Source: Kaistella montana
GTDB lineage: Bacteria > Bacteroidota > Bacteroidia > Flavobacteriales > Weeksellaceae
Direction: 5' to 3'
DNA: 64,000 bases
NCBI RefSeq assembly: GCF_024436175.1
Contig: NZ_JANFQP010000001.1
Location: forward strand, 806,001 to 870,000
The notes under the pieces: model-generated
The model's input: the letters and a program-made list of their open reading frames with translations, nothing else
Database searches by the model: none
Told to the model about the DNA's origin: nothing
Shown: in pieces, positions 2,998-6,179 of the stretch
Layout of the letters: every line of letters starts with the position of its first letter
Position numbering within the stretch: the first letter of the stretch is position 1
Position numbers and translations under genes: made by a program

Positions 2998-3436
2998 TTA
3001 GACAACAGATGTCAGATGTCAGATTCTAGACTATTTTTGTTTTAAATTACTTTTTAAATTTGCCTTGAAAGAATAAATCATTCTTTGAATTTCATTAAGT
3101 TTTGATATTAAACTATTGACTTTTTCTGCATCTAATAAATTTAATTCACGTGTCAGAATTAATTGTGTCTGTAATTCAAAAGAGGAAGCATTTGCAATTG
3201 CAAGAAAATGAAAAAATTCACTATCGTTGTTTCTTCCAGCTCCTTCTGCAATATTTGAGGGAATCGAAATTACCGATCTTTTAATTTGAGAAATCAAACC
3301 AAATTTTTCATCGTTTGGTAAATCTGCACAAACAATATAAACCTCCTTCAAAGGCTCAATTGATTTCTGCCAAAAAAGTAATTTCTCAAAATTATGCATA
3401 GTAAAGTCTGTTATCTGATGTCTAATATCTGAAATC
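2998..3436 (-). mobile_element. Candidate minimal element: four-helix-bundle gene between inverted TCTGA-rich arms
   Basis: The single ORF between carA and carB is bounded by two related sequences in inverted orientation. One arm (2998-3031) carries TTAGACA followed by repeats of CAGATGT. The other (3406-3436) reads GTCTGTTATCTGATGTCTAA and ends in ATCTGAAATC. Both are built from TCTGA-like words spaced 7-8 bases apart. The element starts five bases after the carA stop codon. A gene-free pair of similar arms lies between atpD and atpC (49502-49563). Mobility is inferred from this pattern; no target-site duplication or transposase was identified. Confidence 0.5.
3031..3399 (-). CDS. Four-helix-bundle protein, 23S rRNA intervening-sequence family
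   Basis: This 122-residue protein belongs to the four-helix-bundle family first known from ORFs inside 23S rRNA intervening sequences; the family also includes the accessory protein of diversity-generating retroelements. The signature is SIPSNIAEGAGR at residues 45-56, followed by FFHFLAIANAS, and the whole chain is helical. I chose the ATG at 3399 (MHNFEKLLFW) because the upstream in-frame TTG at 3438 lies inside the flanking repeat. It interrupts carA-carB in the same orientation and is probably co-transcribed. The molecular role is unknown; related proteins form basic pentamers that bind nucleic acid. Confidence 0.85.
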   Translation of the reverse strand: MHNFEKLLFWQKSIEPLKEVYIVCADLPNDEKFGLISQIKRSVISIPSNIAEGAGRNNDSEFFHFLAIANASSFELQTQLILTRELNLLDAEKVNSLISKLNEIQRMIYSFKANLKSNLKQK

Positions 3437-3441
3437 AAAAG

Positions 3442-4515
3442 TTATTTTTTAAACTCCTCCATCAACTCAATAAACTCATCAAACAAATAATTCGCGTCTT
3501 CCGGGCCTGGACTTGCTTCCGGGTGATATTGTACGCTGAAACATGGATGGATTTTATGCCTTAAACCTTCGTTGGTACGGTCGTTTAGGGCGATGTGGGT
3601 TTCTTCCAAATCGGTGTTTTTTAAACTTTCCTGATCTACTGCATACCCGTGATTTTGAGAAGTGATCGCCACTTTATTTTTAGCTAAATCTAAAACGGGA
3701 TGATTTCCACCTCTATGCCCGAATTTCAGTTTGTAAGTTTTCGCTCCACAAGCCAAAGCAATCAATTGATGTCCCAAACAAATTCCGAAAATTGGGACTT
3801 TTCCGAGTAATCCGTTGATCAATTCCGACGCTCCTTTCACATCTTGTGGATCTCCAGGACCATTGGAAAGCATGATTCCATCGGGATTCATCAACAAAAT
3901 CTCTTCGGCGGTAACATTTTGGGAAACCACTTTTACATCGCAATCTCTTTGGGCAAGTTCGCGCAGAATTCCGAGTTTAGAACCGAAATCCACTAAAACC
4001 ACGTTCAAACCTCTTCCTGGATTTGCATAAGCCGTTTTTGTCGAAACCATTTCCACCTGATTGGTTGGGAAATCGGTTGATTTTAAAGATTCAATTACTG
4101 TATTTTCTTCTGAGTTTTCAGCTACAATTTTACCTTTTACAACTCCTTTGCTGCGCAAAACTCTTGTTAGTCTTCTGGTATCAATTCCGGAAATTCCGGA
4201 TAATTTCTTTTTCTGAAAAAACTCATCCAAAGTGAGTTGATTTCTGAAATTCGAGGGGAAATCGCACAATTCTTTTACAATCAAACCTTTAATTGCGGGT
4301 TCGAGACTTTCATAATCGTCGCGGTTGATCCCATAATTTCCAATAAGCGGATAGGTCATACATACAATCTGTCCGCAATAGGACGGATCTGAAATAAGTT
4401 CCTGATAGCCAGTCATTCCGGTATTGAAAACCACTTCGCCGTCAATTTCTTGCTCTGCACCGAAACCTTCACCGTGGAAAACTTCACCAGATTCCAAAAC
4501 TAATTTTTTCTTCAT
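3442..4515 (-). CDS. carA: Carbamoyl-phosphate synthase small (glutaminase) subunit
   Basis: This subunit hydrolyses glutamine and passes ammonia to CarB. The 357 residues match the family length. The N-terminal small-subunit domain contains FNTGMTGYQE (about residues 30-39). The C-terminal class I glutamine amidotransferase domain contains GICLGHQL with nucleophile Cys246, LSNGPGDP near residue 217, and the His/Glu pair in SVQYHPEA near the end. It lies downstream of pyrB with a 48-base gap and upstream of the inserted four-helix-bundle gene and carB, so it belongs to the pyrimidine operon. The start is the ATG giving MKKKLVLESGEVFHG, the usual N-terminus. Confidence 0.97.
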   Translation of the reverse strand: MKKKLVLESGEVFHGEGFGAEQEIDGEVVFNTGMTGYQELISDPSYCGQIVCMTYPLIGNYGINRDDYESLEPAIKGLIVKELCDFPSNFRNQLTLDEFFQKKKLSGISGIDTRRLTRVLRSKGVVKGKIVAENSEENTVIESLKSTDFPTNQVEMVSTKTAYANPGRGLNVVLVDFGSKLGILRELAQRDCDVKVVSQNVTAEEILLMNPDGIMLSNGPGDPQDVKGASELINGLLGKVPIFGICLGHQLIALACGAKTYKLKFGHRGGNHPVLDLAKNKVAITSQNHGYAVDQESLKNTDLEETHIALNDRTNEGLRHKIHPCFSVQYHPEASPGPEDANYLFDEFIELMEEFKK

Positions 4516-4563: not shown

Positions 4564-5454
4564 TTATTTAAAGGAGAATCCTTTTTTTTCTAAAGCATCT
4601 TTTAAAATTGCCATTCTTGCGAACACTCCGTTTTCCATTTGTTTGAAAATTCTGGAGCGAGGAGATTCTATCAAATCATTATGAATCTCTACGCCTCTGT
4701 TGATGGGTGCAGGATGCATAATGATCGCATTTTTTTTCATCACTTTTTCTCTTTCCAGAGTTAATCCGAATTTTTTGTGATAATTATCGGTTGATATTTT
4801 CATTTTCTCATCATGTCGCTCGTGTTGAATTCTGAGCAACATCAGCACATCAACTTCTTTCACTAAATCATCGATAGAGAGATAAGTTCCGTTGATAATT
4901 GTTCCTTCATCAAACCATTTTTCAGGACCAGAAAAATAAACTTTTGCACCTAATTTTCTAAGAGCAACTGCATTAGAATTAGCTACTCTACTGTGTTTTA
5001 CATCACCTACAATTCCTATTTTCAAACCTTTGAATTTTCCGAATTCCTGTTGGATGGTCATCAAATCCAACAAAGTTTGCGAAGGATGGTTTCCGGTTCC
5101 GTCGCCACCATTGATGATAGGAATATCGATTTCTTTTAACTCCTCATAAAACTTATCTTGTTTATGGCGAATTACCAAAAGATTTACACCCAAACTTTTA
5201 AGAGTTTTCACAGTGTCATAAAGCGATTCTCCTTTATTTACCGAACTCGAAGTTACATCGAAAGGCACCACATTGAGTCCTAATTTACGTTCTGCGATAT
5301 GAAAACTGGTTTTGGTGCGCGTGCTGTCTTCAAAAAAAAGGTTGGAAACGTAAATTTCTTCTTGAGCTTTTAGAACTTTTCCTTTTGAAAATTCTTCGGC
5401 TGAAATTAATAAAGAATTAATTTTTTCTACGGTTAAGTCGGTGGTTGTAAGCAT
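4564..5454 (-). CDS. pyrB: Aspartate carbamoyltransferase catalytic subunit
   Basis: This enzyme condenses carbamoyl phosphate with aspartate, the committed step of pyrimidine synthesis. The carbamoyl-phosphate loop is FFEDSTRTKTSF near residues 41-52, followed by SSVNKGES (the 80s loop) and GNHPSQTLLD; MHPAPINRGVEI lies near the C-terminus. The length of 296 residues is slightly under the usual 305-310. No pyrI-type regulatory subunit is adjacent. It is the first gene of the operon, and a leader ORF, a U-rich stretch and an intrinsic terminator lie just upstream, which suggests control by transcription attenuation. Confidence 0.97.
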   Translation of the reverse strand: MLTTTDLTVEKINSLLISAEEFSKGKVLKAQEEIYVSNLFFEDSTRTKTSFHIAERKLGLNVVPFDVTSSSVNKGESLYDTVKTLKSLGVNLLVIRHKQDKFYEELKEIDIPIINGGDGTGNHPSQTLLDLMTIQQEFGKFKGLKIGIVGDVKHSRVANSNAVALRKLGAKVYFSGPEKWFDEGTIINGTYLSIDDLVKEVDVLMLLRIQHERHDEKMKISTDNYHKKFGLTLEREKVMKKNAIIMHPAPINRGVEIHNDLIESPRSRIFKQMENGVFARMAILKDALEKKGFSFK

Positions 5455-5473
5455 ATTTTTTTCAGTTTAGGTC

Positions 5474-5503
5474 AAAAAAAAACGAAGCCAAAAAAGCTTC
5501 GTT
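5474..5503 (-). terminator. Intrinsic terminator in the pyrB leader (candidate attenuator)
   Basis: On the minus strand AACGAAGC and GCTTCGTT form an 8-bp stem around a 7-base T-rich loop, followed by at least seven T. It ends about 20 bases before the pyrB start. No gene on this strand lies upstream, so the hairpin can only act on the pyr leader transcript. On the plus strand it lacks a T tract. Confidence 0.8.
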
Positions 5504-5576
5504 ATAAAAAACAAATATTGTTAATGTCGGCAAAATTGCCTGTCTGTAAATCGTCTAATGGAAATATTCTTTTCAT
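5502..5576 (-). CDS. pyrB leader peptide (24 residues), candidate
   Basis: A short ORF starts with ATG at 5576, begins MKRIFPLDDLQTGNF and ends in NNICFL before a TAA at 5504-5502, exactly at the foot of the terminator hairpin. The stretch TTTGTTTTTTATAAC just before the stop is U-rich in the RNA, like the UTP-sensitive pause region of the E. coli pyrBI leader. The ORF is out of frame with pyrB. The start lies only 6 bases after the promoter -7 element, so the leader would be almost or fully leaderless. Translation is not proven; position and architecture are the evidence. Confidence 0.55.
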   Translation of the reverse strand: MKRIFPLDDLQTGNFADINNICFL

Positions 5577-5582
5577 TAGGTG

Positions 5583-5611
5583 CAAAGATAGAAATTTATT
5601 TTGAACAACAA
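5583..5611 (-). promoter_or_regulatory. Promoter of the pyrB operon
   Basis: On the minus strand the -7 element TATCTTTG (5590-5583) matches the Bacteroidota consensus TAnnTTTG exactly. A TTG (5611-5609) lies 18 bases upstream, in the expected -33 position. Transcription would start near 5579-5576, at the leader ORF start. Confidence 0.7.
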
Positions 5612-5762: not shown

Positions 5763-6179
5763 ATGTCCAATTCATGTCCGAAATGTCAACAAAAGAACAT
5801 CGTGAAAAGTGGAATCGTGAAAGAGCGACAACGCTTCCTGTGCAGAGATTGCAACTATTATTTCACCGTAAAAAAATTAGGGAAACAAATTGATGATTAT
5901 TACGTTACAAAAGCGCTACAATTGTATCTCGAAGGTTTGTCTTTCCGGGAAATTGAGAGAATTATCGGCGTTTCTCATGTTACGATAAGCTCTTGGATCA
6001 AAAAATACAATATCAAAAGACCACCACACTCTGAGTTTCATACCAGCTACAAAGTTTTCAAACAAAGCGAACTGATTTCCTTTATCCAAAACGAAGAAAA
6101 CATCAAAGGTTCCGGTCTCATTATCACTGAATTTGGAGATAAGTACATGATGATAAAATGGGAAAGATTTAAAAAATAA
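5763..6179 (+). CDS. Zinc-ribbon plus helix-turn-helix protein, IS1 InsA-like
   Basis: This 138-residue protein starts with a zinc ribbon (CPKCQQ near residue 5 and CRDCNYYF near residue 27) followed by an HTH reading ALQLYLEGLSFREIERIIGV and VSHVTISSWIKKY. This is the arrangement of the InsA/N-terminal part of IS1-family transposases. No DDE catalytic domain follows, no terminal inverted repeats are evident, and the gene has its own promoter. The last 50 residues (FKQSELISFIQNEENIKGSGLIITEFGDKY) do not resemble a transposase. I infer a domesticated DNA-binding regulator. It sits at the head of the carboxylate-uptake locus, whose porin starts 136 bases downstream. The target is unknown. Confidence 0.7.
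   Translation: MSNSCPKCQQKNIVKSGIVKERQRFLCRDCNYYFTVKKLGKQIDDYYVTKALQLYLEGLSFREIERIIGVSHVTISSWIKKYNIKRPPHSEFHTSYKVFKQSELISFIQNEENIKGSGLIITEFGDKYMMIKWERFKK

Follow-up and report, generated by a model that had tools for sequence, protein, structure and literature searches.

The window analysed here, a stretch of 64,000 nucleotides of Kaistella montana DNA, carries on its minus strand a pyrimidine operon composed of pyrB (4564–5454; aspartate carbamoyltransferase catalytic subunit; NF002032, 360 bits against a cut-off of 263), carA (3442–4515; carbamoyl-phosphate synthase small subunit; TIGR01368, 486 bits) and carB (2–2986; the large subunit; NF003671, 1582 bits), the last of which runs off the window. 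All three exceed the cut-offs of curated NCBIfam models, which bears out the identities given to them in an earlier sequence-only reading of this DNA. Between carA and carB, within the operon, lies a gene for a four-helix-bundle protein (3031–3438, minus strand; TIGR02436, 115 bits), a family commonly encountered within intervening sequences of 23S rRNA. An IS1-family-like protein of 138 amino acids, scoring 81 bits and thus under the family cut-off of 100, is encoded divergently from the pyrB leader (5763–6179, plus strand). A similar upstream sequence (TTGGACATAACTATA...) adjoins pyrB in many members of Kaistella, a genus formerly classed as Chryseobacterium, and the gene may be a long-resident, domesticated or broken part of a transposase.

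The pyrB start codon, at 5454, is preceded by a compact leader, all elements of which are on the minus strand. A promoter composed of a -33 element TTG (5609–5611), an 18-nt spacer and a -7 element TATCTTTG of the Bacteroidota sigma-A form TAnnTTTG (5583–5590) is followed, 6 bases further, by the ATG (5576–5574) of a near-leaderless open reading frame (ORF) of 24 codons (MKRIFPLDDLQTGNFADINNICFL; 5502–5576). The TAA stop of this ORF (5504–5502) has 2 bases in common with the stem of an intrinsic terminator (5481–5503), in which AACGAAGC and GCTTCGTT (5503–5496 with 5488–5481) form eight Watson–Crick pairs, with one G–T pair closing the loop; a T tract follows (5474–5480). The distance from the stop to the pyrB start is 47 nt, the terminator lying between. 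Promoter, ATG, ORF, stop overlap, terminator and pyrB start had all been described from the sequence, and each was found where it had been placed. The U-rich tract ATATTTGTTTTTTAT (5504–5518), a candidate UTP-sensitive pause region, occupies the end of the ORF. Beyond the elements described earlier, the ORF holds two hairpins. In P1, a 5' arm CTAATG that holds the start codon (5574–5579) pairs with a 3' arm CATTAG (5555–5560); P2, GGCA-ATTT-TGCC (5529–5540), is a candidate pause hairpin. The leader RNA as a whole is more stably folded than shuffled versions of it (z -3.1).

DNA before pyrB was read in the genus Kaistella, in the family Weeksellaceae, in the order and in named genomes. The leader was read at 176 Weeksellaceae loci and is carried by about 25 genera. 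Its parts follow a common order in these family leaders: TAnnTTTG, 5–7 nt, ATG, the ORF, a hairpin, a U-rich tract, a stop at the terminator foot and pyrB. The ORF has 18–26 codons in most of them, the terminator is of the CGAAG..CTTCG type with pyrB 20–27 nt beyond it, and in every leader found the ATG stands 13–15 nt past the first base of the -7 box. The proposed Bacteroidota promoter fared unevenly in this comparison: the TA..TTTG of the -7 box is invariant in the family alignment, but the TTG at -33 is weakly conserved and could not be traced clearly among relatives. When the leader was searched for with a covariance model, each of the 36 members of the genus gave a single strong site, in every case ahead of pyrB, and no credible site turned up outside Weeksellaceae in samples of 196 genomes from the order and 295 from the class. 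Two marginal matches in the latter sample (E 0.002 and 0.005) are at chance level. Secondary matches in the genus (E 0.01–1) were considered as possible leaders before other genes and rejected, the seven inspected being ordinary terminators elsewhere. For quantitative tests, 90 leaders were reduced to 42 representatives that are less than 85% similar from ATG to terminator; because relatives share ancestry, p-values overstate independence even in this set, related sequences being treated as more independent than they really are.

In genus g17 (L201–L208 and L088), which has a divergent PyrB, the leader ORF begins with TTG, is longer and extends across another terminator, AAACATCTT..AAGATGTTT, overlapping the pyrB start in some loci; a hairpin and a U-run precede this terminator in most of the g17 loci. 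Judging by these features, we regard the g17 leader as a variant of the same plan. Five other genera of the family (g10, g19, g22, g28 and g29) gave no PyrB match in nearly all sampled genomes, though these are nearly complete. Such genera may be without de novo pyrimidine synthesis or may possess an unrelated enzyme.

The leader terminator is the only terminator present between 5400 and 5800 (0.1 expected in shuffled sequences). In the family alignment, 99.5% of the cells of its stem are paired and three pairs have changed on both sides, the kind of covariation by which the sequence-only reading had proposed to judge the hairpin. In all 42 representatives, the ORF frame remains open until at most 14 nt before the terminator, against 12.9 expected from dinucleotide shuffles; in 30 of them the stop is placed -4 to +2 nt from the terminator foot, against 1.7 expected. 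The same position is occupied by the stop in 159 of the 176 family leaders; nearly all the remaining stops lie past the terminator, the ORF running through it, and no ORF among the family leaders read ends more than 14 nt before it. It could have been that neither the frame nor the hairpin is conserved in relatives; frame, stop position, U-tract and terminator proved to be kept across about 25 genera.

The position of the stop bears on the idea that the ORF is a mere translational enhancer, with ribosomes re-initiating at pyrB and the hairpin incidental. Leader ORFs of small size are often seen next to structural genes, in Bacteroidetes too, but a ribosome at a stop codon reaches about 12 nt downstream (PMC4833913), and here 47 nt with an intervening terminator separate the stop from pyrB. 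Moreover, it is with the terminator foot, and not with the pyrB start, that the stop keeps a fixed spacing. We give this explanation almost no credence.

Conservation of the ORF through synonymous substitutions, which the sequence-only reading had proposed as a check, was not found. The dN/dS-like ratio of 0.76 is indistinguishable from the null value of 0.85 (108 of 300 simulations were as low), purifying selection on the leader peptide was undetected and the peptide appears free to change. Since this is so, it is the frame and the stop position that argue for translation of the leader ORF, which we infer to take place. With frame and stop conserved and the amino acids unconstrained, the feature that is kept would be a frame delivering the ribosome to the terminator, and not a peptide.

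The U-rich stretch noticed at the end of the K. montana ORF is kept near the terminator across clades, whatever the reading frame. In almost all clades, its ATATTT motif begins 10–17 nt ahead of the foot of the terminator. The frame phase over this motif is 1 in most leaders, 0 in L019, L067, L079, L200 and leaders akin to them, and 2 in genus g7 and L016. Although the nucleotides are identical or closely similar, the leader peptides end variously in NIYFI, KIFIF, KTIFI, QYFY, RYCYY or FIQYLFLL. We take the U-tract to act as nucleotides, not as codons. U makes up 50% on average of the last 22 nt before the foot as compared with 28% of the rest of the leader. Over the whole ORF it amounts to 36–37% (36% in the window, from AAUG to the terminator foot), versus 49% U-requiring in E. 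coli pyrL (PMC10135430), a lower content that counts against a pyrL-like mechanism.

These observations leave little room for attenuation of the trp, his or TnaC style, in which the ribosome would stall on the nascent peptide or for want of a scarce aminoacyl-tRNA. A leader ORF does exist and many of the ORFs end in N/D-I-Y/F; this ending, however, is a by-product of the nucleotide motif, as the shifted-frame clades end in KIFIF, RYCYY, KTIFI or FIQYLFLL. Selection on the peptide was not detected, and the leader has neither a run of a single codon nor an antiterminator. Stalling of this type is in our opinion scarcely credible.

The P2 hairpin is found in 42 of 42 representatives with sequences that differ among them (GGCAATTTTGCC, GGGCGAAAGCGCCC, GAAGGGCAAGGTCCTTC, ATGGCTTACCAGCCAT and others), and of the 31 representatives having an exact ATATTT motif, 30 carry it 4–11 nt upstream of that motif. 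Three of its four pairs show changes on both sides in an alignment that was not fitted to the structure, and a shuffle test over the 42 representatives gave a combined p of about 4e-17, a value that ignores their kinship. Together, P2 and the U-tract form a candidate pause site for RNA polymerase, which we infer to be sensitive to UTP.

A search for an antiterminator in the 42 representatives was negative: with the 3' arm removed, the terminator 5' arm pairs upstream at 0.25, versus 0.37 in shuffles, and a rank of 0.05 was reached by 2 of the 42. This absence favours ribosome occlusion over a switch between RNA structures. Only two chance matches below the gathering score, and no PyrR element, were obtained in an Rfam scan of the leader. 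The PyrR protein was found over the cut-off in none of 120 Weeksellaceae genomes. As a positive control, 92 of the 146 genomes from the order have this protein over the cut-off, none belonging to Weeksellaceae among the matches listed. In ten loci read from other families of the order, pyrB begins right where pyrR ends and a leader is lacking between them.

The conserved and covarying P1 and P2 could suggest an RNA that binds a ligand, or one bound by a protein in the manner of a riboswitch or of PyrR, the open frame being coincidental. Such a leader would have to function without any Rfam match, the PyrR element included, in a family from which PyrR is absent, with hairpin sequences and loops that vary freely and a terminator arm that has no alternative pairing. 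The model also leaves unexplained the rule that the stop lies at the terminator foot. We therefore hold it to be very improbable.

No other PyrB in the class and phylum samples (Bacteroidota) exceeds 47% identity with the PyrB of Weeksellaceae, which is 55–100% identical within the family. By these values it is a separate branch, either a long branch or an acquired gene, that coincides with the loss of PyrR.

In Flavobacterium psychrophilum, the -7 box occupies positions -12 to -5 relative to the transcription start site and leaderless messages (5.5%) are known (PMC9723704). By analogy with the position of the box in that species, transcription would start at the leader ATG or 0–4 nt before it, and ribosome loading onto the nascent RNA could therefore be immediate. 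The RNA polymerase would then slow at the U-rich tract before the terminator, aided by the upstream P2 hairpin, and would do so more at lower UTP. A slow polymerase would allow the pioneer ribosome to finish the ORF during synthesis of the terminator and to cover the terminator 5' arm, for which the ribosome reach of about 12 nt should suffice, and transcription would read through into pyrB. With plentiful UTP, the polymerase would outrun the ribosome, the terminator would fold and the operon would be off. Neither an antiterminator nor a ligand-binding RNA nor the PyrR protein would be needed. The statement of the E. coli mechanism is similar: UTP-dependent pausing, at a hairpin pause, lets the ribosome block the terminator (PMC10135430).

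Thus, we consider it likely, on evidence read from DNA, that the leader is a translation-coupled transcription attenuator of pyrB-carA-carB that works like E. coli pyrL, with a terminator that is presumably conditional and a presumed response to UTP. The pyrL-type logic had been proposed from the K. montana sequence, and it has been strengthened by the pause-type hairpin, the lack of an antiterminator, the independence of the U-tract from the frame and the loss of PyrR in exactly Weeksellaceae. The evidence favours attenuation through ribosome occlusion with pausing over the sensing of codons, of a peptide or of a ligand by a riboswitch.

The P1 hairpin is common, not universal. At least four of the five bases from -2 to +3 are paired downstream in 26 of the 42 representatives, and P1 is missing in about 16. 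The pairing beats 95% of shuffles in 22 of the 42, and it covaries, the pair at -2 being U–A in 11 representatives and C–G in 13. The inverted repeat CTAATG...CATTAG could also be read as a DNA operator in place of P1. This reading is disfavoured because the two arms change in concert and are separated by anything from 4 to more than 30 nt, depending on the clade.

In Bacteroidia, start codons with little structure are favoured for initiation (PMC9976891). Once the leader is finished, P1 would stand in the way of its translation, which counts as evidence against the pyrL-like attenuator. The hairpin may restrict loading to nascent RNA, keep terminated leader fragments silent, or respond to the choice of start site as in pyrC. 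It probably closes the window for ribosome loading once about 20–30 nt of the ORF have emerged, only a prompt ribosome then counting.

The presence of the start codon in a covarying hairpin in 26 of the 42 representatives, the sensitivity of Bacteroidia initiation to structure at that codon (PMC9976891) and a whole leader with just 36–37% U would also suit the same coupled attenuator gated by initiation at P1 (or by translation capacity, initiation factors or GTP) and not by UTP-dependent polymerase speed, so that the operon would follow the growth or translation state. However, P1 is missing in about 16 of the 42 whereas nearly all representatives have the U-tract and P2, the genes controlled are specifically pyrimidine genes, and the leader was found before no other operon in these genomes. 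We rate gating of this kind as unlikely. It is possible, though we incline against it, that P1 and UTP-dependent pausing are parts of a two-stage, regulator-free pyrimidine switch, in which the 5'-terminal hairpin would serve as a timer (or be set by nucleotide-dependent start-site choice) and the U-tract and terminator would read the timely loading of the pioneer ribosome. If so, access to the start codon on a near-leaderless RNA would be a sensor of polymerase speed that replaced PyrR at the root of Weeksellaceae.

PyrL-type attenuation is a textbook case of transcription–translation coupling used as a nucleotide sensor and, to our knowledge, is known for enterobacteria and their relatives. 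We found no earlier description of a leader such as this one in the open-access literature. Since PyrR is absent from the family genomes searched and the leader was not found outside the family in the order and class samples, the Weeksellaceae leader is apparently a new, convergent variant of the pyrL attenuator. The ribosomes of Bacteroidota ignore Shine–Dalgarno sequences. If the pyrL-like reading is true, polymerase and ribosome would be kinetically coupled in Bacteroidota too, and the regulation of pyrimidine synthesis in a whole family after the loss of PyrR would be explained. The family also offers dozens of natural variants in which the features that matter (stop position, U-tract, hairpins) could be tested against one that does not (the peptide).

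The Weeksellaceae leader resembles the pyrBI–PyrL system of E. coli and Salmonella in that it controls pyrB and has a short promoter-proximal ORF and an intrinsic terminator just before pyrB. In E. coli pyrL, a GCGTCTGAAAAAAGACGC hairpin is followed after 10 nt by a U run, a layout matched by P2 and the U-tract. In both systems, the ORF reaches or crosses the terminator, an antiterminator is lacking and the peptide sequence is apparently irrelevant. However, pyrL has 44 codons and crosses the terminator, whereas the Weeksellaceae ORF has 18–26 codons and mostly stops at the foot. The Shine–Dalgarno start of pyrL is replaced in Weeksellaceae by a near-leaderless one, the operon is pyrB-carA-carB and U is concentrated next to the terminator. 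The Weeksellaceae start codon, unlike that of pyrL, lies within a covarying 5' hairpin; we know of no such 5'-terminal start-codon hairpin in E. coli pyrL. Sequence kinship with enterobacterial pyrL is not evident, the order and class samples yielded no credible leader outside Weeksellaceae, and the likeness would be one of function, homology being unsupported.

PyrR attenuation, as in Bacillus subtilis, likewise places pyrimidine operons under a conditional terminator, and PyrR adjoins pyrB in other families of the order Flavobacteriales; Weeksellaceae, in contrast, have no PyrR gene, PyrR-binding element (Rfam) or antiterminator. Attenuators of the trp and his type share the combination of a leader ORF and a terminator with the present leader, which differs in having no codon run, antiterminator or peptide constraint. 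In E. coli pyrC and pyrD, a 5' hairpin controls the start codon of the enzyme gene itself through nucleotide-dependent choice of the start site. A hairpin at the RNA 5' end covers a start codon in Weeksellaceae as well (26 of the 42 representatives), and its outermost pairs would involve nucleotides at the likely start site. The Weeksellaceae hairpin, however, would act on a leader ORF ahead of a terminator and not on the start of the enzyme gene.
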